Origin: a virus
DNA length: 22,111 bases
Strand: one strand, 5' to 3'
Virus record (IMG/VR): IMGVR_UViG_3300046010_014000
Span: 1 to 22,111 of that record
Position 1 is the first letter of the stretch. Each line of letters starts with the position of its first letter. A model generated the notes under the pieces. The model searched no databases. It was not told the DNA's origin and saw nothing but the letters and a program-made list of their open reading frames with translations. Below, one piece after another: positions 520-21,029 of this stretch. The position numbers and the translations under genes are program-made.

Positions 520-825
520 TTAAAACACGTATAAGTCCACAGTTACAGGAGCCGAGCTATTAAGTATAAGTGTACGGCTCTTTACTTGATTAGAGTCTTG
601 TTTATCATATATTACAGCAGCTGCCCTTACTCTAACCAACATCCACCCTTGCAACACTCTGCCTAACTTATGATCAATAGTATTATCACCGGCTTTTAAC
701 ACTACACTTTGCAATGTAACACCGTTATTTGTAGGCAAAGCCAAGATAGGATTAATAGAGCTAGCCCATGCTGTCTGCATTAGCATAAGACTTTGATCAT
801 CTGACTTATAGATAGGCAGTGACAT
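520..825 (-). CDS. Small beta-rich tail-associated protein
   Basis: This encodes 101 residues from ATG 825-823. That ATG overlaps the stop of the adaptor gene by one base (TGATG), with GGAGG six bases upstream. A TTG one codon earlier is possible but less likely. The protein contains NTIDHKLGRVLQGWMLVRVR followed by beta-type sequence ending in VTVDLYVF. The pattern of an H-x-LGR-x-x-QGW core near a C-terminal beta strand occurs in small phage proteins beside fibre genes; I know no defined function for them. Its place between the head-tail adaptor and the fibre suggests a small structural or tail-tip component. No signal peptide, membrane segment or catalytic motif is visible. Confidence 0.65.
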   Translation of the reverse strand: MSLPIYKSDDQSLMLMQTAWASSINPILALPTNNGVTLQSVVLKAGDNTIDHKLGRVLQGWMLVRVRAAAVIYDKQDSNQVKSRTLILNSSAPVTVDLYVF

Positions 826-1838
826 CAATAGCCTCCAAAGCTTCCGTCGCCATTAGGTGAACCGTATCCACCCCAACGCTCACCAAAGGTGCGAACATCA
901 GAAATGGTATCTGGTTGCCCAGCATCCCTGTTCATAGCGGAAGACTGTATACGGTCAATTAGCATTTGTTTTTGTGCCATTAACACTGTAACATCAGATT
1001 CTTCTTTTTGCAAGCATTTAATAGCTGCATCAACTATAACATATTCCACCCATCCGCTAATGCTCTGTAACATATCGCTATCTTTAAGCAACGTAGCTAC
1101 ACGAGGAATATACCATAATCTGATATATTGATTAGCACTTGGGGTAGGTATGAAGAATAGTGTATTACCGACTACGCGGTAACGAAGATTAAATACGCCG
1201 AGGAAAGTAGAGGTAACGTTAGGAAAAACATACCTATTTCTGCTAATAAAGTCAAACTTGTGCAGTGTCACCCAGGCGTTATTATTAGCACCTAGTCCGC
1301 AGTCAACACCTAATAGCTTATAGAAAGCAGGAGCTCCACTAAAGTTGCTACCATTAGGCAATGTATACTGGCTAGTCGAACCGTCTGTTTGAAAGGTGAG
1401 GGGAGGAGCTACATAGTAATCCTCATACAGGGTTACGAGCAAGTCGTAAAGCTCTGTATATGATTGATTGATATAGCTATTCCATTCTTCCTTTGTAACA
1501 AAGTTACTATTCACTCTATCAGCTCTTTGCTGAGCTAATAAGCGTACTTGGCCTAACGACATTTCGCCGGTTAGAGCAGGTACAGCTGAAACTGAACTAC
1601 TAAAAGATGATTGGATTCCGTTAGTTGAAGCTACTCTGTAGTAATACGTAGTGCCAACAATGACAGAAGGATCAAGATACTCAGCCGCAGTAAGAGTGGC
1701 AATAGTCGAGAAATTGACATTGTCAGTACTCCTCTGTAAAGGGTATCCCGTGGCTCCTGCCACTTGGTCCCAAGAAAGGTAAATTTGTCCATTACCTTGT
1801 TGGGCAATAAGGTTTTGAGGTATTGATGGTGCAGGCAC
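825..1838 (-). CDS. Head-tail adaptor with N-terminal FN3 domain
   Basis: The 337-residue product starts at GTG 1838-1836, with AGGAG five bases upstream. Residues 1-90 look like a fibronectin type III domain: PSIPQNLIAQQGNGQIYLSW, then GYPLQRSTDN, and GTTYYYRVAS before the last strand. From about residue 92 (MSLGQVRLLAQQRADR) it resembles the adaptor/neck proteins that sit under the portal of SU10-like podoviruses. Helices come first (EEWNSYINQSYTELYDLLV), then beta strands (LFFIPTPSANQYIRLWYIP), then a C-terminal helix (YVIVDAAIKCLQKEESDV). The tail is Gly-rich and includes GERWGGYG. In a virion it would join portal to tail. Position downstream of capsid and upstream of the fibre fits. The FN3 call and the adaptor call are each from pattern only. 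Confidence 0.72.
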   Translation of the reverse strand: MPAPSIPQNLIAQQGNGQIYLSWDQVAGATGYPLQRSTDNVNFSTIATLTAAEYLDPSVIVGTTYYYRVASTNGIQSSFSSSVSAVPALTGEMSLGQVRLLAQQRADRVNSNFVTKEEWNSYINQSYTELYDLLVTLYEDYYVAPPLTFQTDGSTSQYTLPNGSNFSGAPAFYKLLGVDCGLGANNNAWVTLHKFDFISRNRYVFPNVTSTFLGVFNLRYRVVGNTLFFIPTPSANQYIRLWYIPRVATLLKDSDMLQSISGWVEYVIVDAAIKCLQKEESDVTVLMAQKQMLIDRIQSSAMNRDAGQPDTISDVRTFGERWGGYGSPNGDGSFGGY

Positions 1839-10921: not shown

Positions 10922-10949
10922 ATTATACCAGTATTTTTTAGCTTGTCAA
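10922..10949 (-). promoter_or_regulatory. Leftward promoter PL1
   Basis: TTGACA (10949-10944) and TATAAT (10927-10922) both match sigma70 consensus perfectly, with a 16-base spacer. Transcription should start near 10915, giving a leader of about 96 bases before ATG 10819. The leader contains the inverted repeat and the PL2 promoter. Confidence 0.88.
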
Positions 10950-13520: not shown

Positions 13521-15476
13521 ATGAATTATAAAATTATAAAATCAGTAAGAGAATTAAACGAAGTACTTGTCGAATGGCAAGGTCTTCTAGCATGTGATAT
13601 CGAGACACATCCAGGGCATATTTTAGGAATATCACTTGCACCGGAAAAAACAAAGAACGGCGTAGTAGCTGTTTACATACCATTAAAAGTTTATGACAAA
13701 GAGACGAATACGTTTATTGAGGCTTGCGATAAAGACTTGGCACATCATATTGGAAGTGTGTTATTGGATTATCGCTTGGTTGGTCATAATTTTACTTACG
13801 ACAAAAGCCATATAGACAGGCAGTATAAAGTAGACACTCAATGGGCAGCAGATACCCGTATTATGTGGCACTTAGCGTCAGCACCAGCAGGTCCCAGGCC
13901 GTATGGGCTTAAAGATGCCCAAGTGGAGCTGCTGGGCTACGCAGAGAAAGGTAATACAGAGCTAATAGCTAATATAAAAGCAAATGGAGGTAAAGGAAAA
14001 GGCGAAGACATGCATTTAGCTGATTTAGAAGTATTAGCTAAATACGCCGCTTTAGATGCCCACTCCACTATTGAATTGTATAAGAAATTGTCACCATTTT
14101 TTGATACCAATGATTATTGGTGGATGTTAGAAAAAATGATGCAGTATAATATTTTGCTGCAGAAAAATACAGACCTTGGCGTAACAGTTGACGTTCAAGG
14201 GTTAGAAAAATCACATAATAGATTATTAAGGGTGAAAGAAGCTGCCAAGGTTAGATTCCAAAAGGAGCTAAAGAATGAAATTGCGTCCCTCGAAAAAGAC
14301 TGGGCAGATCGTAGAATTGCCGAGTATAAACGAGAAAGTAACAAGGCTTGGTATGCTAATCATCCAGAAAAATGGGAAAGGTTTAACCTCAATTCTGACT
14401 CGCACAAAAGGGAATTGTTTTTTGAAAAGCTCGGCCATACTCCCACTAACTTCACTGAATCAGGCAAACCTAGTGTGGATGGGGACAGCATCAAACGAAT
14501 CCCAAGTAATTTTGTGGAGGCTTACTTAAAATATGAAAAAGCTAACACCTTATCTACTAATTTCTCTGGACCTTATTTGTCAAGTTGTGGAGATGGTAGG
14601 CTCCATCCTGGTTTTAACATTTGCGGGACTGTGTCATATCGTCTCAGTGGTTTTAAGCCTTATCTTCTTAACGCCCCTTTTGATGAAAAAGTTATACTTA
14701 AAAACCTTAAATGTGATGAAGGCTATGTTGGGGTACACGCGGACTTATCGGCAATCGAACCAACAATTACGGCGCATTACAGTGAAGATCCCTCACTCCT
14801 CAAAGTCTTCAGGGACGGGTTAGGTGATATTTATCTTGACTTAGCTTTAGAGCTATTTAAGAATGACAAGGAATTGCACTATGGGTATAATCCTAATATA
14901 CCAATCACAACGGAAGTTAAAGAGAGATTTGCTAAGCAGCGTAAAGTCGCTAAGGTTATTCAGCTTGCAGTACAGTATACAGGTACAAAACACACAGTGG
15001 CTAAAAACCTTACAAAAGAAGGCATACCGACTACTGTCGAACAAGCAGACGAATACGTAAAAGCTTATTGGCGTAAGTTTGACGCTGTCAAAAAGTTTAA
15101 CTACCAATTACGGGAAGTTAATAGAGATCAAGGTTATCTTAGAAATGTAATAGGGAGGATAATACGTGTACCCGATCCGGAATATAAAGACTTATCTAAC
15201 AGATTTATACAAAGTAGTGCGCACGACGTACTCGTACTATGGGTGCTTAGTATCTACCGGCGTTGCAAAGAGGAAGGCATTGAAATCAAGCCTATCCTAC
15301 TTGACTGTCACGATAGTACCAGCAATCAAGTACCTAAAGAGCAAGCCAAAAGACTCAGAGAAATATATGGAGCCACCCTCAACGTTTTAAATCATGAGTT
15401 AGGCTTGTGTGTAAAAATTAAAGCAGAAGCAAAGACTTTTAATACCTTAGCAGGTTTAAAAAACGAAGAAGAATAA
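13521..15476 (+). CDS. polA: DNA polymerase I family A, with 3'-5' exonuclease
   Basis: The 651-residue enzyme replicates phage DNA. The exonuclease has D26-x-E28 (ACDIETH), VGHNFTYDKSH with N90 and D94, and Y175-x3-D179 (KYAALDAHST). The polymerase has motif A, VHADLSAIEP (D408, E413); motif B, R474-x3-K478-x3-L482-x3-Y486 (RKVAKVIQLAVQYTG); and motif C, LLDCHDSTSNQ (H597, D598). There is no 5'-3' exonuclease domain, as in T7 gp5, and the length is somewhat below that of T7. Two deviations stand out: Leu replaces the usual Phe/Tyr at the E. coli 762 position, and the usual Glu after His-Asp in motif C is Ser599. No Shine-Dalgarno is seen. The gene follows the ssDNA-binding candidate. Confidence 0.95.
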   Translation: MNYKIIKSVRELNEVLVEWQGLLACDIETHPGHILGISLAPEKTKNGVVAVYIPLKVYDKETNTFIEACDKDLAHHIGSVLLDYRLVGHNFTYDKSHIDRQYKVDTQWAADTRIMWHLASAPAGPRPYGLKDAQVELLGYAEKGNTELIANIKANGGKGKGEDMHLADLEVLAKYAALDAHSTIELYKKLSPFFDTNDYWWMLEKMMQYNILLQKNTDLGVTVDVQGLEKSHNRLLRVKEAAKVRFQKELKNEIASLEKDWADRRIAEYKRESNKAWYANHPEKWERFNLNSDSHKRELFFEKLGHTPTNFTESGKPSVDGDSIKRIPSNFVEAYLKYEKANTLSTNFSGPYLSSCGDGRLHPGFNICGTVSYRLSGFKPYLLNAPFDEKVILKNLKCDEGYVGVHADLSAIEPTITAHYSEDPSLLKVFRDGLGDIYLDLALELFKNDKELHYGYNPNIPITTEVKERFAKQRKVAKVIQLAVQYTGTKHTVAKNLTKEGIPTTVEQADEYVKAYWRKFDAVKKFNYQLREVNRDQGYLRNVIGRIIRVPDPEYKDLSNRFIQSSAHDVLVLWVLSIYRRCKEEGIEIKPILLDCHDSTSNQVPKEQAKRLREIYGATLNVLNHELGLCVKIKAEAKTFNTLAGLKNEEE

Positions 15477-15479
15477 TAA

Positions 15480-15508
15480 TTGACATTATGATAAAGGTTT
15501 GTTATAAT
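15480..15508 (+). promoter_or_regulatory. Consensus sigma70 promoter for the ClpP-like gene
   Basis: TTGACA (15480-15485) and TATAAT (15503-15508) are both perfect, with a 17-base spacer. Transcription should start near 15515. It lies four bases after the polymerase stop codon, inside the early unit, and would boost the ClpP-like gene and everything downstream. The leader contains a four-codon frame, ATG GAG AAC AAA TGA (15518-15532), whose stop overlaps the ATG of the next gene. Confidence 0.9.
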
Positions 15509-15528: not shown

Positions 15529-16338
15529 ATGAAAAGACGATCTGGAAAACAATTAATAATGGAATTAATCCCCTTAGTTCTGTTATCGATAATGTTAGGA
15601 ATGTGTGTTAAATCTCGTGGTTCAGAAGTAATTATGTTATCTGAGGAAAACACAGTAGCTTTAAATATGCCTATTTTTGGGCCTACCGTAGCCACTGTGC
15701 AAGAGCAATTGTTAGAAAAAGACAAGAACCTGAGAAAAGGTAAGCCTATTTATCTTGTTTTGAATTCCCCTGGTGGAAGCATTCAAGATGGTCTTAACAT
15801 GATTGAAGTGGCTAAAGGATTGGGACGTCCTGTCCATACTATCAGTCTTTTTAGCGCAAGTATGAGCTTTGTTACTAGCCAAAAGCTTAATGACAGGCTT
15901 GTTACAGACGCCACTATTATGATGAGCCATAGAGCATCCGTAGGAGGAATCGGCGGTAATATCCCAGGTTCATTTCTTACATTTGCTAACTTCCTAGCTA
16001 AGTATCTTTCCGATATTAACAAAGGAATTGCGCAAAGATCCGGTATGACTTTGGAAGCTTATGAAAAGCTTGTAGCTGATGAATTATGGATGAATGGTGA
16101 TGAAGCTATCCGACTTAAGTTTGCTGACCGTAAAGTTAACTTAAAATGTGATAAATCTTTGTCAGGGTACGGTCCTGTTCAAGAGCTTAGTCTTGGATTC
16201 TTTTCTGTAAAGTTGCAATTTCACAAATGCCCTATGATCACTGCTCCTAAGTTTGCCGGTGGAGATCAGTACATAGCTAATTTGTTAGCAAACGACAAAA
16301 TTGAATTCATTAACCGTTATAAACATTTACTTCAGTAA
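15529..16338 (+). CDS. Membrane-anchored ClpP/SppA-like serine protease
   Basis: The 269-residue product starts at ATG 15529 (GGAG five bases upstream). Residues 12-26 (ELIPLVLLSIMLGMC) form a hydrophobic N-terminal segment, a signal peptide or membrane anchor; Cys26 is not preceded by a canonical lipobox. The clan SK core follows: YLVLNSPGGSIQDGLNM (75-91), a nucleophile Ser111 in FSASMSF, His134 in MMSHRAS, and an acidic residue (D184 or E185) in VADELWMNGDEA. The order Ser, His, Asp and the SPGG oxyanion motif define ClpP-like fold. Head-maturation ClpP-type proteases normally lie beside the capsid gene and lack an anchor; here it lies among early genes, so a role on host membrane or exported proteins is more likely. 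It has its own promoter. The role is inference. Confidence 0.8.
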   Translation: MKRRSGKQLIMELIPLVLLSIMLGMCVKSRGSEVIMLSEENTVALNMPIFGPTVATVQEQLLEKDKNLRKGKPIYLVLNSPGGSIQDGLNMIEVAKGLGRPVHTISLFSASMSFVTSQKLNDRLVTDATIMMSHRASVGGIGGNIPGSFLTFANFLAKYLSDINKGIAQRSGMTLEAYEKLVADELWMNGDEAIRLKFADRKVNLKCDKSLSGYGPVQELSLGFFSVKLQFHKCPMITAPKFAGGDQYIANLLANDKIEFINRYKHLLQ

Positions 16339-17445: not shown

Positions 17446-18130
17446 AGTATTAGTCATAGCTGATACGCAAGCACCTTTTATACATCAAGATTATCTTAAG
17501 TTTTTAAAGGCAGTACAGAAAAAGTATAGTACTACAATTACTATACACGTAGGTGATTTAGTTGATCATCACGCTTTAGGCGATTGGGATCACGATCCAG
17601 ATGGGTTTAGTGCCGGTCAAGAGCTTAAAGAAGCTATTAAACAACTTACACCTTTCTATAAAGCATTTCCCAAGATGCTTGTATGTAAAGGTAATCATGA
17701 CGAGCGTATCTTTAGACGAGCCATGAAGTATGGAATCCCTCGGGCGTATTTAAGAGAATACAGAGATTTTCTCAAGGCTCCAAAAGGGTGGAAATGGCTT
17801 GATAAGGTAGAAGTAGACAATGTAGTGTATAAGCATGGTCTTGGGTACTCAGGTGTCCAGGGAGCTATAAACGCCGCTAAGGACGAGCTTAAATCGTGCG
17901 TTATAGGTCATTTACACGCTGATGCTGGTGTGTTGTTCTGGGCCAATTCCCAAGTGCTATTATTCGGTATGAATGTAGGCTCAGGAATTGATAAAGATGC
18001 TTATGCTTTTGAGTATGGAAAGCACATGCGTAAAAAGCCCATCCTAAGCTGCGGAGTTGTTATTGATGGCAATCCCGTGCTTGTCGTAATGCATCTTAAC
18101 AAAAGAGGACGTTGGACGGGTAAGTTATGA
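17438..18130 (+). CDS. Metallophosphoesterase (calcineurin-like)
   Basis: The 230-residue product has all blocks of the calcineurin-type fold. Motif 1 is IADTQAP (D9, with Gln11 in place of the usual His). Motif 2 is GDLVD (D40). Motif 3 is GNHDE (N86, H87). A later His is H133 in YKHG, and the last block is GHLH (H158, H160). Family members hydrolyse phosphomono- or diesters in nucleotides, RNA or DNA; the substrate cannot be read. The protein is probably cytoplasmic, as no signal or membrane segment is present. It overlaps the HNH gene by eight bases and its stop overlaps the next ATG (ATGA), so it belongs to the same translation chain and may act in nucleic-acid processing. Confidence 0.88.
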   Translation: MSKVLVIADTQAPFIHQDYLKFLKAVQKKYSTTITIHVGDLVDHHALGDWDHDPDGFSAGQELKEAIKQLTPFYKAFPKMLVCKGNHDERIFRRAMKYGIPRAYLREYRDFLKAPKGWKWLDKVEVDNVVYKHGLGYSGVQGAINAAKDELKSCVIGHLHADAGVLFWANSQVLLFGMNVGSGIDKDAYAFEYGKHMRKKPILSCGVVIDGNPVLVVMHLNKRGRWTGKL

Positions 18131-18363
18131 AATGGCTAACTGAACTAAAGCTAACACTCACTCAATGGATAGTTGTATCTTTATCTATAATTGTGGGCGT
18201 ATTACTAGTAGTTTTTGATCTTAAAAACAAAGAACTACGTGCAGCTAAAGTTAAGTTAGCAGAGAAAGAGCTTGACATAGCTATAGCTAAAGATTCAGCT
18301 AAAATTAAACAAAAGAAGAAAAAGCTAAAAGAAGCTAAAAATAAATTGAAGGAGGTAATGTGA
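18127..18363 (+). CDS. Small membrane protein with Lys-rich coiled coil (spanin-like candidate)
   Basis: The 78-residue product starts in an ATGA overlap. It has one hydrophobic segment at about residues 10-30 (LTQWIVVSLSIIVGVLLVVF), then a highly charged coiled coil (ELRAAKVKLAEKELDIAIAK, and KKKKLKEAKNKLKE). An N-terminal anchor plus periplasmic coiled coil resembles inner-membrane spanins (Rz-type), though such proteins are usually longer and Pro/Gln-containing. The alternative is a generic early membrane protein. No periplasmic partner is certain nearby; candidates are the exported proteins downstream. Confidence 0.55.
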   Translation: MKWLTELKLTLTQWIVVSLSIIVGVLLVVFDLKNKELRAAKVKLAEKELDIAIAKDSAKIKQKKKKLKEAKNKLKEVM

Positions 18364-18620
18364 AAGTGAAATACCATAAAAGTCTACCTATAGTTGTTAT
18401 TGAAGCAATTGATCATTGCATGGACACTCCTCGCAATTTGAGAGAAGATGTGATGAAATTTCACGTTACAGGCATTTTGTTTGCTGAGACTAAGGATGCT
18501 TGGTATCTAGCAAGCTGGTTATTTATGAAAGACATCAATGATGCCAATAATGAAGGCTTTATGATTGTCAAAACTCCTGGTGCTAAATTAACCGTATTAG
18601 GGCATGTAAATAATGAATAA
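18360..18620 (+). CDS. Conserved hypothetical small protein
   Basis: This encodes 86 residues from GTG 18360, within ATGTGA at the end of the previous gene, four bases after AAGGAGG. The sequence (HKSLPIVVIEAIDHCMD, then EDVMKFHVTGILFAETKDAW, and NNEGFMIVKTPGAKLTVL) has the look of a compact beta-rich cytoplasmic protein. The cores AETKDAWYLASWLF and NNEGFMIVK resemble small proteins in other phages that I know only as hypotheticals. No catalytic motif, cysteine pair or signal is present. Function is unknown. Confidence 0.6.
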   Translation: MKVKYHKSLPIVVIEAIDHCMDTPRNLREDVMKFHVTGILFAETKDAWYLASWLFMKDINDANNEGFMIVKTPGAKLTVLGHVNNE

Positions 18621-18864
18621 ACTAATAATTACATTATGCTTAGTATCCCAGCTAGCTTTAGCTGAATCTAAAGAATGTAAAGATTATGTTAAAGCTTGCG
18701 AAGAGACTGTAGCAGCTCAAGATAAAGCTATTGACAATTTAAAAAAATCTGTTAAGATACTTAAAGAAGAGTTGGAACAGGCCGAAAACAAAACTCCTAG
18801 TTGGGTAGTGCTTGTAGGAGGGATAGCAATCGGCGTAATACTAAACTCTACTATAAGGAGATAA
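18613..18864 (+). CDS. Exported coiled-coil protein with C-terminal membrane anchor
   Basis: The 83-residue product starts at ATG 18613, eight bases inside the previous gene. Residues 1-18 (MNKLIITLCLVSQLALAE) form a signal peptide with an ALA-E cleavage site. A charged coiled coil follows (ACEETVAAQDKAIDNLKK), then a C-terminal hydrophobic segment (WVVLVGGIAIGVIL) and a short basic tail. The topology is secretion through Sec with a final anchor in the inner membrane. Phage proteins of this build (signal, coiled coil, C-terminal anchor) are commonly lysis-associated; a u-spanin would need an N-terminal lipobox, which is absent. It sits immediately before the metzincin gene. Confidence 0.6.
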   Translation: MNKLIITLCLVSQLALAESKECKDYVKACEETVAAQDKAIDNLKKSVKILKEELEQAENKTPSWVVLVGGIAIGVILNSTIRR

Positions 18865-18865
18865 C

Positions 18866-19363
18866 ATGCTTAGATACTTTATTGTTTTAGCGCTATTCTT
18901 AGCCAATGTTGGATGCGGAAGAAGCGTATGGCCTGCTCACATTAAGTTTAATTCTAATACAATGAGCCCTGATGTAACTTTTGTTCTTACTCAGTATGTA
19001 AAAGACTTAAATAAACTAATGGATCAAAAGGTGTTAAAGTTTGATTCAGACACCGATCCTGATTCTCTTAGGTCTTACACTATCTTTGTAAAACTAGCTT
19101 TAGAAGATGTAGAGGGTAATAAAGCTGGTATAGCTGAGGTAGGTCCTTATGATTGTTTTATTACAATCTATCCTTTAGCTTATAGGTCTGATATTGTTAA
19201 GACTGTGTTATGGCACGAAATTGGCCATTGTGTTGGGTTAAGGCATATTGACGTGGGAAGAGAGATTATGTCCCCTGGTGTGGGACATTTTAGCTCTTAT
19301 CCTGAGCAAAAGATTAGAAATTTCCGAAATGAATTCTTATTAATGTTTAGACTTCTTCAATAA
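18866..19363 (+). CDS. Exported metzincin-type zinc metalloprotease
   Basis: The 165-residue product has AAGGAG before ATG 18866. Residues 1-17 (MLRYFIVLALFLANVGC) are a signal peptide ending in Cys17; NVGC is close to a lipobox but lacks the usual Leu at -3, so a lipoprotein is possible rather than certain. The protease core is H117-E118-x2-H121-x5-H127 (WHEIGHCVGLRH) with a Met-turn IMSP (M135). This is the metzincin signature, in which three His bind zinc and Glu is the base. Matrixin-like size fits. The enzyme would act in the periplasm or on the outer membrane. The substrate is unknown. A phage-encoded exported metzincin is unusual. Confidence 0.78.
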   Translation: MLRYFIVLALFLANVGCGRSVWPAHIKFNSNTMSPDVTFVLTQYVKDLNKLMDQKVLKFDSDTDPDSLRSYTIFVKLALEDVEGNKAGIAEVGPYDCFITIYPLAYRSDIVKTVLWHEIGHCVGLRHIDVGREIMSPGVGHFSSYPEQKIRNFRNEFLLMFRLLQ

Positions 19364-19373
19364 GGTGATCTAA

Positions 19374-19601
19374 ATGACTGATTCAAAGAATAAGTATTGT
19401 TGCGCAGGAAAGACTAACTTATACGAAATGTGCGCTTACTGTTATAACTCTTTCTTTGCCGATCCTGATGCCTTTGTGCCTCAAGATGAGTACGATTCTT
19501 ACCATGATGCTGGTATATTTACGCCACCTGTATGCGAATGCGGTAGCGAAGCTGCAGGAGGAACTACTCATAGTCACTGGTGTCCCAAGAGCCCTTCATG
19601 A
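19374..19601 (+). CDS. Small cysteine-rich zinc-binding-like protein
   Basis: The 75-residue product starts at ATG 19374 with AAGGTGA upstream. Cys pairs occur at the N-terminus (KYCCAG and CAYCYN), and the C-terminus has CECGSEAAGGTTHSHWCP. The last block matches a small zinc-binding motif, C-x-C-G then a Thr/His segment and HSHWCP, which I recall in short phage proteins. No enzyme motif is visible. Such proteins may bind nucleic acid or host proteins. Its stop overlaps the next start (ATGA). Confidence 0.6.
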   Translation: MTDSKNKYCCAGKTNLYEMCAYCYNSFFADPDAFVPQDEYDSYHDAGIFTPPVCECGSEAAGGTTHSHWCPKSPS

Positions 19602-19819
19602 GGATTATAGGTGCTAAAAACAAACAAGACCTCACTCGTGGGGATGAGGAAGCTTTAATAAGAGCTGTGTACGAAAGCACGTCTTTGCATAACATAAAGA
19701 ATATAAGGTTTATCAGGTCTATACTTGAAAACCTGTTTATCTTTAGAGAGGATCAATATGACCTGTTAATGCGGCGTATTAAGAAGGAATTCGATAAAGG
19801 GAGGATAAGTGAAGATTAA
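19598..19819 (+). CDS. Hypothetical small protein
   Basis: This encodes 73 residues from ATG 19598, which overlaps the previous stop (ATGA); a longer GTG start at 19580 is unlikely because it overlaps the zinc-protein end without a ribosome site. The product is helical and charged (DLTRGDEEALIRAVYESTSL, then YDLLMRRIKKEFDKGRISED). No known domain is recognised. It overlaps the next start by 11 bases. Function is unknown. Confidence 0.55.
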   Translation: MRIIGAKNKQDLTRGDEEALIRAVYESTSLHNIKNIRFIRSILENLFIFREDQYDLLMRRIKKEFDKGRISED

Positions 19820-20220: not shown

Positions 20221-20655
20221 TTAAACATCATTACAGAACATGGCCTTTTCAGCGGCTCGGCGCTTGACTAGGCCATTTAGCTTTTGGCCTCCGGCATACA
20301 CCCACTTATCAAACTCATGGGAAGCAGCATTTTTCTTACCTTCCCTTAAAAGCTTATACATAGTGCTCTTTTTAAAGGCTCCTATGCCTATATTGTATAT
20401 AAAACATACAAGGGCATCAAATTCATACTGCTTTAGCTTGTTTTCAAATAGATTGGTAAGCTCTAAGCCTATATCTAGGACGTGGGCCATTAATAGGTAA
20501 TCGGCTGTCCTTTGCGTTATAGTGAGCCCAAATTGAATGCCTTTGCCTGTGGTACCCCATCCTATGGTCCATACCCCAGCAGAGTCCTGGTAAGCTTTTA
20601 AACGGCAAGATTCAAACCTTTTAATTAGGTTTATAGCCCTTTCGGAAGGAATCAT
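20221..20655 (-). CDS. Endolysin, GH24 lysozyme (T4-type muramidase)
   Basis: The 144-residue product has the canonical catalytic triad spacing E-x8-D-x5-T: E15 in KRFESCRLKAYQ, D24 in QDSAG, T30 in WTIGWGTT. The rest matches GH24 lysozymes (CFIYNIGIGAFKKST, and FDKWVYAGGQKLNGLVKRR). It cleaves the N-acetylmuramic acid-GlcNAc bond in peptidoglycan. There is no signal peptide, so it needs the holin encoded just upstream to reach the cell wall. Its ATG overlaps the holin stop (ATGA), with no strong ribosome site, so translation is coupled to the holin. The pair converges on the early unit at 20209. Confidence 0.95.
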   Translation of the reverse strand: MIPSERAINLIKRFESCRLKAYQDSAGVWTIGWGTTGKGIQFGLTITQRTADYLLMAHVLDIGLELTNLFENKLKQYEFDALVCFIYNIGIGAFKKSTMYKLLREGKKNAASHEFDKWVYAGGQKLNGLVKRRAAEKAMFCNDV

Positions 20656-21029
20656 TTTTTATCTGATTGATTAAGCTTGTCTATAAGCATGTGAATAATG
20701 GACATGCCTGAGATACGCTCAATATTCTCCATTACACTTTTAAGCTCGGTAAGTCCTATAAAACCGGCTAAAACTTTGACAATAGGAACCGCATCTCCTG
20801 TCATATATTGCTCGGTAAGGAACCCTAGCATAATGACGGCCTCATACACAGTCGTTTTAATGATTGTGCGCTTAAGTCCCGAAGAGGTGATCCTCTTCTT
20901 CTCCTTTCTAGCCGCCATTATGCCTGAAATCAAATCCACCACAGTAAGCACCATTACGGTGATTAGTGTAGCCTTAATGGGCATAAACACCATTGCTATA
21001 GAAGCTAAGAATGCTGTAAACTTTTGCAT
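20652..21029 (-). CDS. Phage holin (holin 4 type)
   Basis: The 125-residue product has hydrophobic segments at about 5-32 (FLASIAMVFMPIKATLITVM, and VLTVVDLISGIMAA), 63-78 and 83-100. The motif D-L-I-S-G-I-M-A-A followed by K-K-R-I-T-S-S-G-L-K-R-T matches the toxin-secretion/phage-lysis holin (Phage_holin_4) family. It would form inner-membrane lesions that release the endolysin and time lysis. It starts in a TAATG overlap with the glycine-rich gene and lacks a Shine-Dalgarno, so it is probably coupled. Holin then endolysin is the usual lysis order. Confidence 0.88.
   Translation of the reverse strand: MQKFTAFLASIAMVFMPIKATLITVMVLTVVDLISGIMAARKEKKRITSSGLKRTIIKTTVYEAVIMLGFLTEQYMTGDAVPIVKVLAGFIGLTELKSVMENIERISGMSIIHMLIDKLNQSDKK

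Follow-up and report, generated by a model that had tools for sequence, protein, structure and literature searches.

Phage-encoded metzincins

Metzincins encoded by phages are already known, but few have been described, namely the Listeria protease Mtz (PMC8235301), a lipoprotein of the Maribacter phage Molly (PMC8776804) and matrixin entries of BFVD. In Listeria, the phage-linked pair Mtz/Tim (LMRG_00713/00714) consists of a secreted protease (SPI) and a lipoprotein partner in a Gram-positive host; together with Tim, Mtz boosts phage lysis only if it is catalytically active (PMC8235301). The Maribacter phages Molly and Colly, which have a flavobacterial host, encode a lipoprotein of 199 aa with a zinc metallopeptidase domain, for which an action on the extracellular matrix was suggested (PMC8776804).

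Here we analyzed a metzincin gene located in a 22,111-nt stretch of viral DNA (IMG/VR record IMGVR_UViG_3300046010_014000), hereafter called the window. Compared by description, its product resembles Mtz in being an exported, phage-associated metzincin with a Met-turn, and its gene, like the Mtz copies of Listeria prophages, is found near holin and lysin genes together with a gene for an exported partner or candidate partner (PMC8235301). Unlike in Mtz/Tim, the protease itself bears a lipobox and the neighbouring protein is a coiled-coil-like protein with a transmembrane (TM) segment. No TIMP-like match was obtained among the neighbouring ORFs profiled and no Tim-like inhibitor was recognised near the metzincin gene. 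With the Molly/Colly lipoprotein the window protein shares its phage origin, its short length and a zinc peptidase domain (PMC8776804). The matrixin Colly_1 appeared in our BFVD fold search; close sequence kinship with the Maribacter phages was not found, since tblastn gave no match at E ≤ 1. New in the present case is a Cys-paired lipoprotein family that, within the phylum searched, was restricted to one bacterial class and that recurs in unrelated phages.

Identification of the metzincin gene and its fold

A first-pass annotation of this DNA had proposed an exported metzincin with a complete zinc signature and a Met-turn. The coordinates of this ORF were exact and the numbering of H117, E118, H121, H127 and M135 was correct (Table 1). 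The gene is preceded by a strong Shine-Dalgarno sequence that ends 3 bases 5′ of the ATG, which in turn is located one base beyond the stop codon of the upstream gene. The motif HExxHxxGxxH occurs a single time in the six-frame translation of the window and in none of 400 order-1 Markov randomisations. Based on these randomisations, the Pfam match and the predicted fold, a chance motif was ruled out.

Table 1. Positions of the metzincin gene, its sequence elements and neighbouring features in the window.
Feature	Position	Strand	Remarks
Sigma-70 promoter	15480..15508	+	12/12 consensus, extended -10; upstream of ClpP-like gene, heads metzincin unit
ClpP-fold serine protease	15529..16338	+	N-terminal signal/TM segment; CLP_protease 7.3e-14; first gene of likely transcription unit
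Protein with i-spanin-like topology	18127..18363	+	N-terminal TM, Lys-rich helical region; metzincin operon; homologue in G006
Adjacent gene	18613..18864	+	charged, coiled-coil-like region (with two conserved Cys) between signal peptide and C-terminal TM
Shine-Dalgarno AAGGAGAT	18855..18862	+	overlaps end of upstream gene (stop 18862-18864)
Metzincin (matrixin-fold) lipoprotein gene	18866..19363	+	165 aa, ATG to TAA, no pro-domain
Signal sequence ending in near-lipobox NVGC	18866..18916	+	hydrophobic N-terminus; C17 predicted lipidated Cys, followed by Gly
C97 codon	19154..19156	+	predicted disulfide partner in strand 96-101; invariant (23/23)
Zinc-binding active site HEIGHCVGLRH	19214..19246	+	H117, E118, H121, H127; contains C122 (19229-19231)
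Met-turn M135 codon	19268..19270	+	from alignment with MMP-11 and karilysin; invariant among 23 homologues
Endolysin (20221-20655) and holin (20652-21029)	20221..21029	-	convergent with metzincin operon

The window protein matched the Pfam family Peptidase_M57 (PF12388), with which it has the HEIGH motif in common, with 26.2 bits (gathering cutoff 21, E = 7.5e-6); the match comprised only residues 80-138 and covered the profile partially (100-160 of 212). For Peptidase_M10 (PF00413) the score of 23.0 was one bit under the cutoff of 24, which was exceeded by the phage homologues L065 and L066 (29.3 and 31.9). At E ≤ 0.1, PF12388 was matched by only 7 of 16 homologues and PF00413 by all 16.

The structure prediction that the annotation had proposed as a check yielded a matrixin fold. 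The AlphaFold2 model, which was based on a 7-row alignment, reached a pLDDT of 83 and a pTM of 0.81, with most of the core at ≥ 90. VIA-align gave a Z score of 12.2 to both MMP-9 and MMP-12 over 130-134 aligned residues, of 11.8 to karilysin and of 11.6 to snapalysin, and Foldseek retrieved matrixins with the model (E = 4.5e-5). A sequence profile of 23 homologues found fragilysin (E = 2.5e-7) and karilysin (E = 8e-7). The identity of the protein as a metzincin is supported by its zinc motif, its Met-turn, the Pfam match and its fold, the latter as predicted by the model.

Besides the fold, the window protein has HExxHxxGxx(H/D) in common with the matrixins (MEROPS M10A: MMPs, karilysin) and snapalysin, and its Met-turn methionine follows the third His at the distance of 8 residues that MMP-11 and karilysin also show. 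In contrast to these enzymes, it lacks a pro-domain with a Cys-switch and has Ile128, at a position that is variable across the family, instead of the Ser of M10 matrixins after the third His. The mature protein consists of the catalytic domain alone, which begins a few residues past C17; as a pro-domain is absent, no zymogen step is expected. The family in turn adds a lipobox and an invariant Cys pair.

This pair was evident from an alignment of 23 homologues, which included phage and chromosomal rows and divergence down to 21% identity. The invariant columns were C97, H117, E118, G120, H121, C122, G124, H127 and M135, so that both C97 and C122 (HE[IL]GHC) were present in 23/23 sequences. The window protein has three Cys residues in total, these two and that of the lipobox. 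According to DSSP, the active-site helix of the AlphaFold2 model (residues 111-122) ends with C122, and C97 is part of the strand formed by residues 96-101. The invariance of both residues suggests a disulfide, and the natural reading is that it pins the active-site helix in the oxidising periplasm.

Export and probable lipid anchor

Export of the window protein, as annotated, is supported by its signal sequence. The lipobox N14-V15-G16-C17 is weak due to Asn at -3, and “near-lipobox” is a fair description; homologues nevertheless carry LPSC, LTGC, LSSC, TSGC, LVSC, LISC, LSGC, or VSAC at the same place. In alignment A4, Cys is present at the C17 position in 15 of 16 rows, the exception being L016, which lacks the N-terminus. 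Since most homologues have a lipobox of the consensus type, the family appears to consist mainly of lipoproteins. The relative in L067 (1755-2285) has lost the Cys (LILASTQA) and kept the signal sequence, which indicates that export is constant in the family and lipidation common yet not universal; this relative is probably soluble. The poor lipobox of the window protein and the missing Cys in L067 argue against the lipid anchor, which overall is probable, with stronger support in the family than in the window protein itself.

In enterobacteria, a residue other than Asp after the lipobox Cys predicts localization in the outer membrane (+2 rule). None of the homologues having this Cys carries Asp behind it. 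The window protein, with Gly at +2, is predicted to be in the outer membrane's inner leaflet and, judged by its sequence, is probably tethered to this membrane. The annotation had considered cleavage of host surface proteins or a contribution to outer-membrane rupture; given the predicted location, substrates would by default be expected in the periplasm and not on the cell surface.

Genomic neighbourhood

The metzincin gene is found near the end of the rightward unit starting at the promoter upstream of the ClpP-like gene. A second sigma-70 promoter with 12/12 consensus and an extended -10 region (10922-10949, minus strand) heads a leftward structural unit. The N-terminal hydrophobic segment of the ClpP-like protein is kept in three phages, with 52% identity in G006 and 54% in G005. 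A PHROGs match suggests a head maturation protease in a displaced position as another possible identity of this protein.

The adjacent gene (18613-18864 in the window) stays beside the metzincin gene in G006, G005, and L067 as well, and in all four the two genes converge on an endolysin-holin pair at a distance of 0.3-1.3 kb. The product of the adjacent gene is a candidate partner or substrate of the metzincin. Two further small ORFs were observed in this region. One of them (window 18360-18620), predicted to be cytoplasmic, is located beside the metzincin module and shares 92% identity with its counterpart in G005 and 69% with that in G006; a look-alike, judged by eye, adjoins the metzincin gene in G007 (1977-2237). 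The other encodes a small exported protein (MKKLLLAALLMASFVKADIEPDKYKHLAVSYG...) directly 3′ of the metzincin gene in L028 (7352-7660, corresponding to G006 19352-19660) and L067 (2282-2590). It was not seen in the window, has a look-alike in G007 (13699-14004) and gave no Pfam match.

Distribution in phages

The assignment to a phage genome was borne out by TerL, which had 93 phage matches, by a family A DNA polymerase and by matches to phage lysozyme, holin and a phage metallophosphoesterase, which characterize the contig as a tailed phage. That the window is a complete 22-kb genome was ruled out, as G002 extends 7.7 kb past its right end. The viral collection contained six near-identical contigs (99-100%) and more distant metzincin relatives with 50% (L013/G005) and 33% identity (L014/G006). 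G006 is collinear with the window, sharing 84% identity in TerL and 87% in the major capsid candidate. With 33%, the metzincin is among the least conserved products of these two, with an unchanged active site; several small ORFs diverge equally.

The gene is carried by at least three unrelated phage lineages. In G007 and G008, which lack a TerL of the window type, it is located near genes for a rhomboid protease and a small coiled-coil TM protein. The rhomboid intramembrane protease gene was found in L007 (6827-7435, minus strand; Pfam 6.3e-15) beside the coiled-coil TM gene, and a further copy, judged by eye, in G008 (813-1457, minus strand). Two divergent metzincin lipoproteins (L063 5001-5474 and L066 4947-5489) are encoded on a 144-kb contig that has a tail sheath gene, one beside the tail sheath and one beside replication genes; in the tree, one belongs to the clade of the window protein and the other groups with the copy of a 52-kb contig (L065), which also carries genes for a UvsX-like recombinase and a dUTPase. 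This recurrence in at least three unrelated lineages, and twice in one genome, suggests that the gene is of use during infection.

Zinc proteases of this kind had been annotated as rare in phage genomes. Rarity stood, in that a tblastn search of 50,697 phage records (E ≤ 1) revealed no close kin among annotated phages and matched two bacterial-looking Acinetobacter contigs only; the gene is not unprecedented, given Listeria Mtz/Tim, phage Molly and the matrixin-like phage entries in BFVD. Two further homologues used as tblastn queries gave no convincing addition, and PHROGs had no family for the metzincin. In L008 (CAKLQH020000026), deposited as “Acinetobacter phage MD-2021a”, two matrixin genes are surrounded by grpE, dnaK, purK, purE, and mpl; because dnaK, grpE, and purK adjoin the matrixins, these contigs are probably mislabelled bacterial DNA.

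Chromosomal relatives and the likely host

Of 15 genomes from one bacterial class, 11 contained full-length chromosomal relatives, and none was found in the 354 other genomes searched in the phylum (E ≤ 1e-12). As the chromosomal homologues are confined to this class within the phylum searched, it is the likely host group. A search with TerL for prophages of the window type in the 15 genomes, carried out without a positive control, found none. Phage and chromosomal rows separated weakly in trees (54/76, and 17/61 with more rows), and this weak support favours neither a single capture nor several, nor a direction of transfer.

Possible functions

In the reading that we prefer, which we hold to have about an even chance of being correct, the protein is an exported, periplasm-facing zinc endopeptidase whose substrates are host envelope proteins and whose activity most likely assists lysis or progeny release. 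This reading is based on the fold, the intact active site, the export signal, the short distance from the lysis genes and the example of Listeria Mtz. The matrixin-type catalytic domain alone would form a small zinc endopeptidase that, after export by Sec and probable lipidation at C17, would be sorted to the outer membrane on its periplasmic side. A disulfide between C97 and C122 would stabilise its active-site helix there, and the enzyme, having no pro-domain, would be active at once. Cleavage of host envelope proteins during infection might then loosen the envelope, so that holin and endolysin could release the progeny. Against a role in lysis stand the position of the gene on the replication strand outside the holin-endolysin operon, the chromosomal homologues without any lysis context and the copies of the 144-kb phage beside tail sheath and replication genes.

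The position on the replication strand would suit an early function, in which the membrane-tethered protease trims or removes an envelope receptor and thereby prevents re-infection and the binding of progeny to debris. Small phage lipoproteins are known as exclusion factors, and the fast divergence of the metzincin relative to TerL and the major capsid candidate would agree with such receptor editing. However, other small ORFs diverge equally fast, the metzincin is predicted to face the periplasm, and to our knowledge exclusion lipoproteins act by binding and not by proteolysis, so that we regard this function as unlikely. PADLOC reported no defence-system match for the five proteins run. The presence of a related lipoprotein in most genomes of the presumed host class, with a similar glycosyltransferase - metzincin - guaB neighbourhood in two MAGs (read by eye from translations), would be expected if the phage supplied an extra dose of a host outer-membrane protease, e.g., for envelope quality control or release of nutrient peptides. 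The window protein, however, shows only 22-26% identity to most chromosomal forms in alignment A5, which suggests that its specificity has probably changed and makes an auxiliary host enzyme distinctly unlikely.

Two further proposals, both improbable in our view, involve the adjacent gene. Its product could be the main target of the metzincin, with cleavage freeing an active fragment, as is suggested by the tight spacing and the co-conservation of both genes and by the cleavage of Tim by Mtz in Listeria (PMC8235301); on the other hand, this neighbour is not adjacent to the metzincin gene in G007, did not appear among the genes listed around the metzincins of L063 and L065, and showed no resemblance to TIMP by profile search. 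Alternatively, the outer-membrane metzincin and the adjacent coiled-coil protein in the inner membrane might sever the connections between outer membrane and wall as a proteolytic counterpart of spanins, which we likewise consider a slim prospect. The topologies are similar to those of two-component spanins, which combine a coiled-coil protein of the inner membrane with a lipoprotein of the outer membrane and are encoded within or next to the lysis cassette, and the window showed no lipobox ORF besides the metzincin gene. However, the metzincin-side genes are on the strand opposite to holin and endolysin, and profile searches gave no match to a spanin family.

Biological significance

The metzincin family offers a marker that links uncultivated phages to the bacterial class carrying the chromosomal forms. 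If the metzincin does act as an aid to lysis, the concept drawn from Mtz/Tim of Listeria, in which a protease makes cells more susceptible to lysis by phages, would extend to Gram-negative envelopes. If it were a proteolytic counterpart of spanins, the last step of lysis by a Gram-negative phage would be accomplished by proteolysis and not by membrane fusion.
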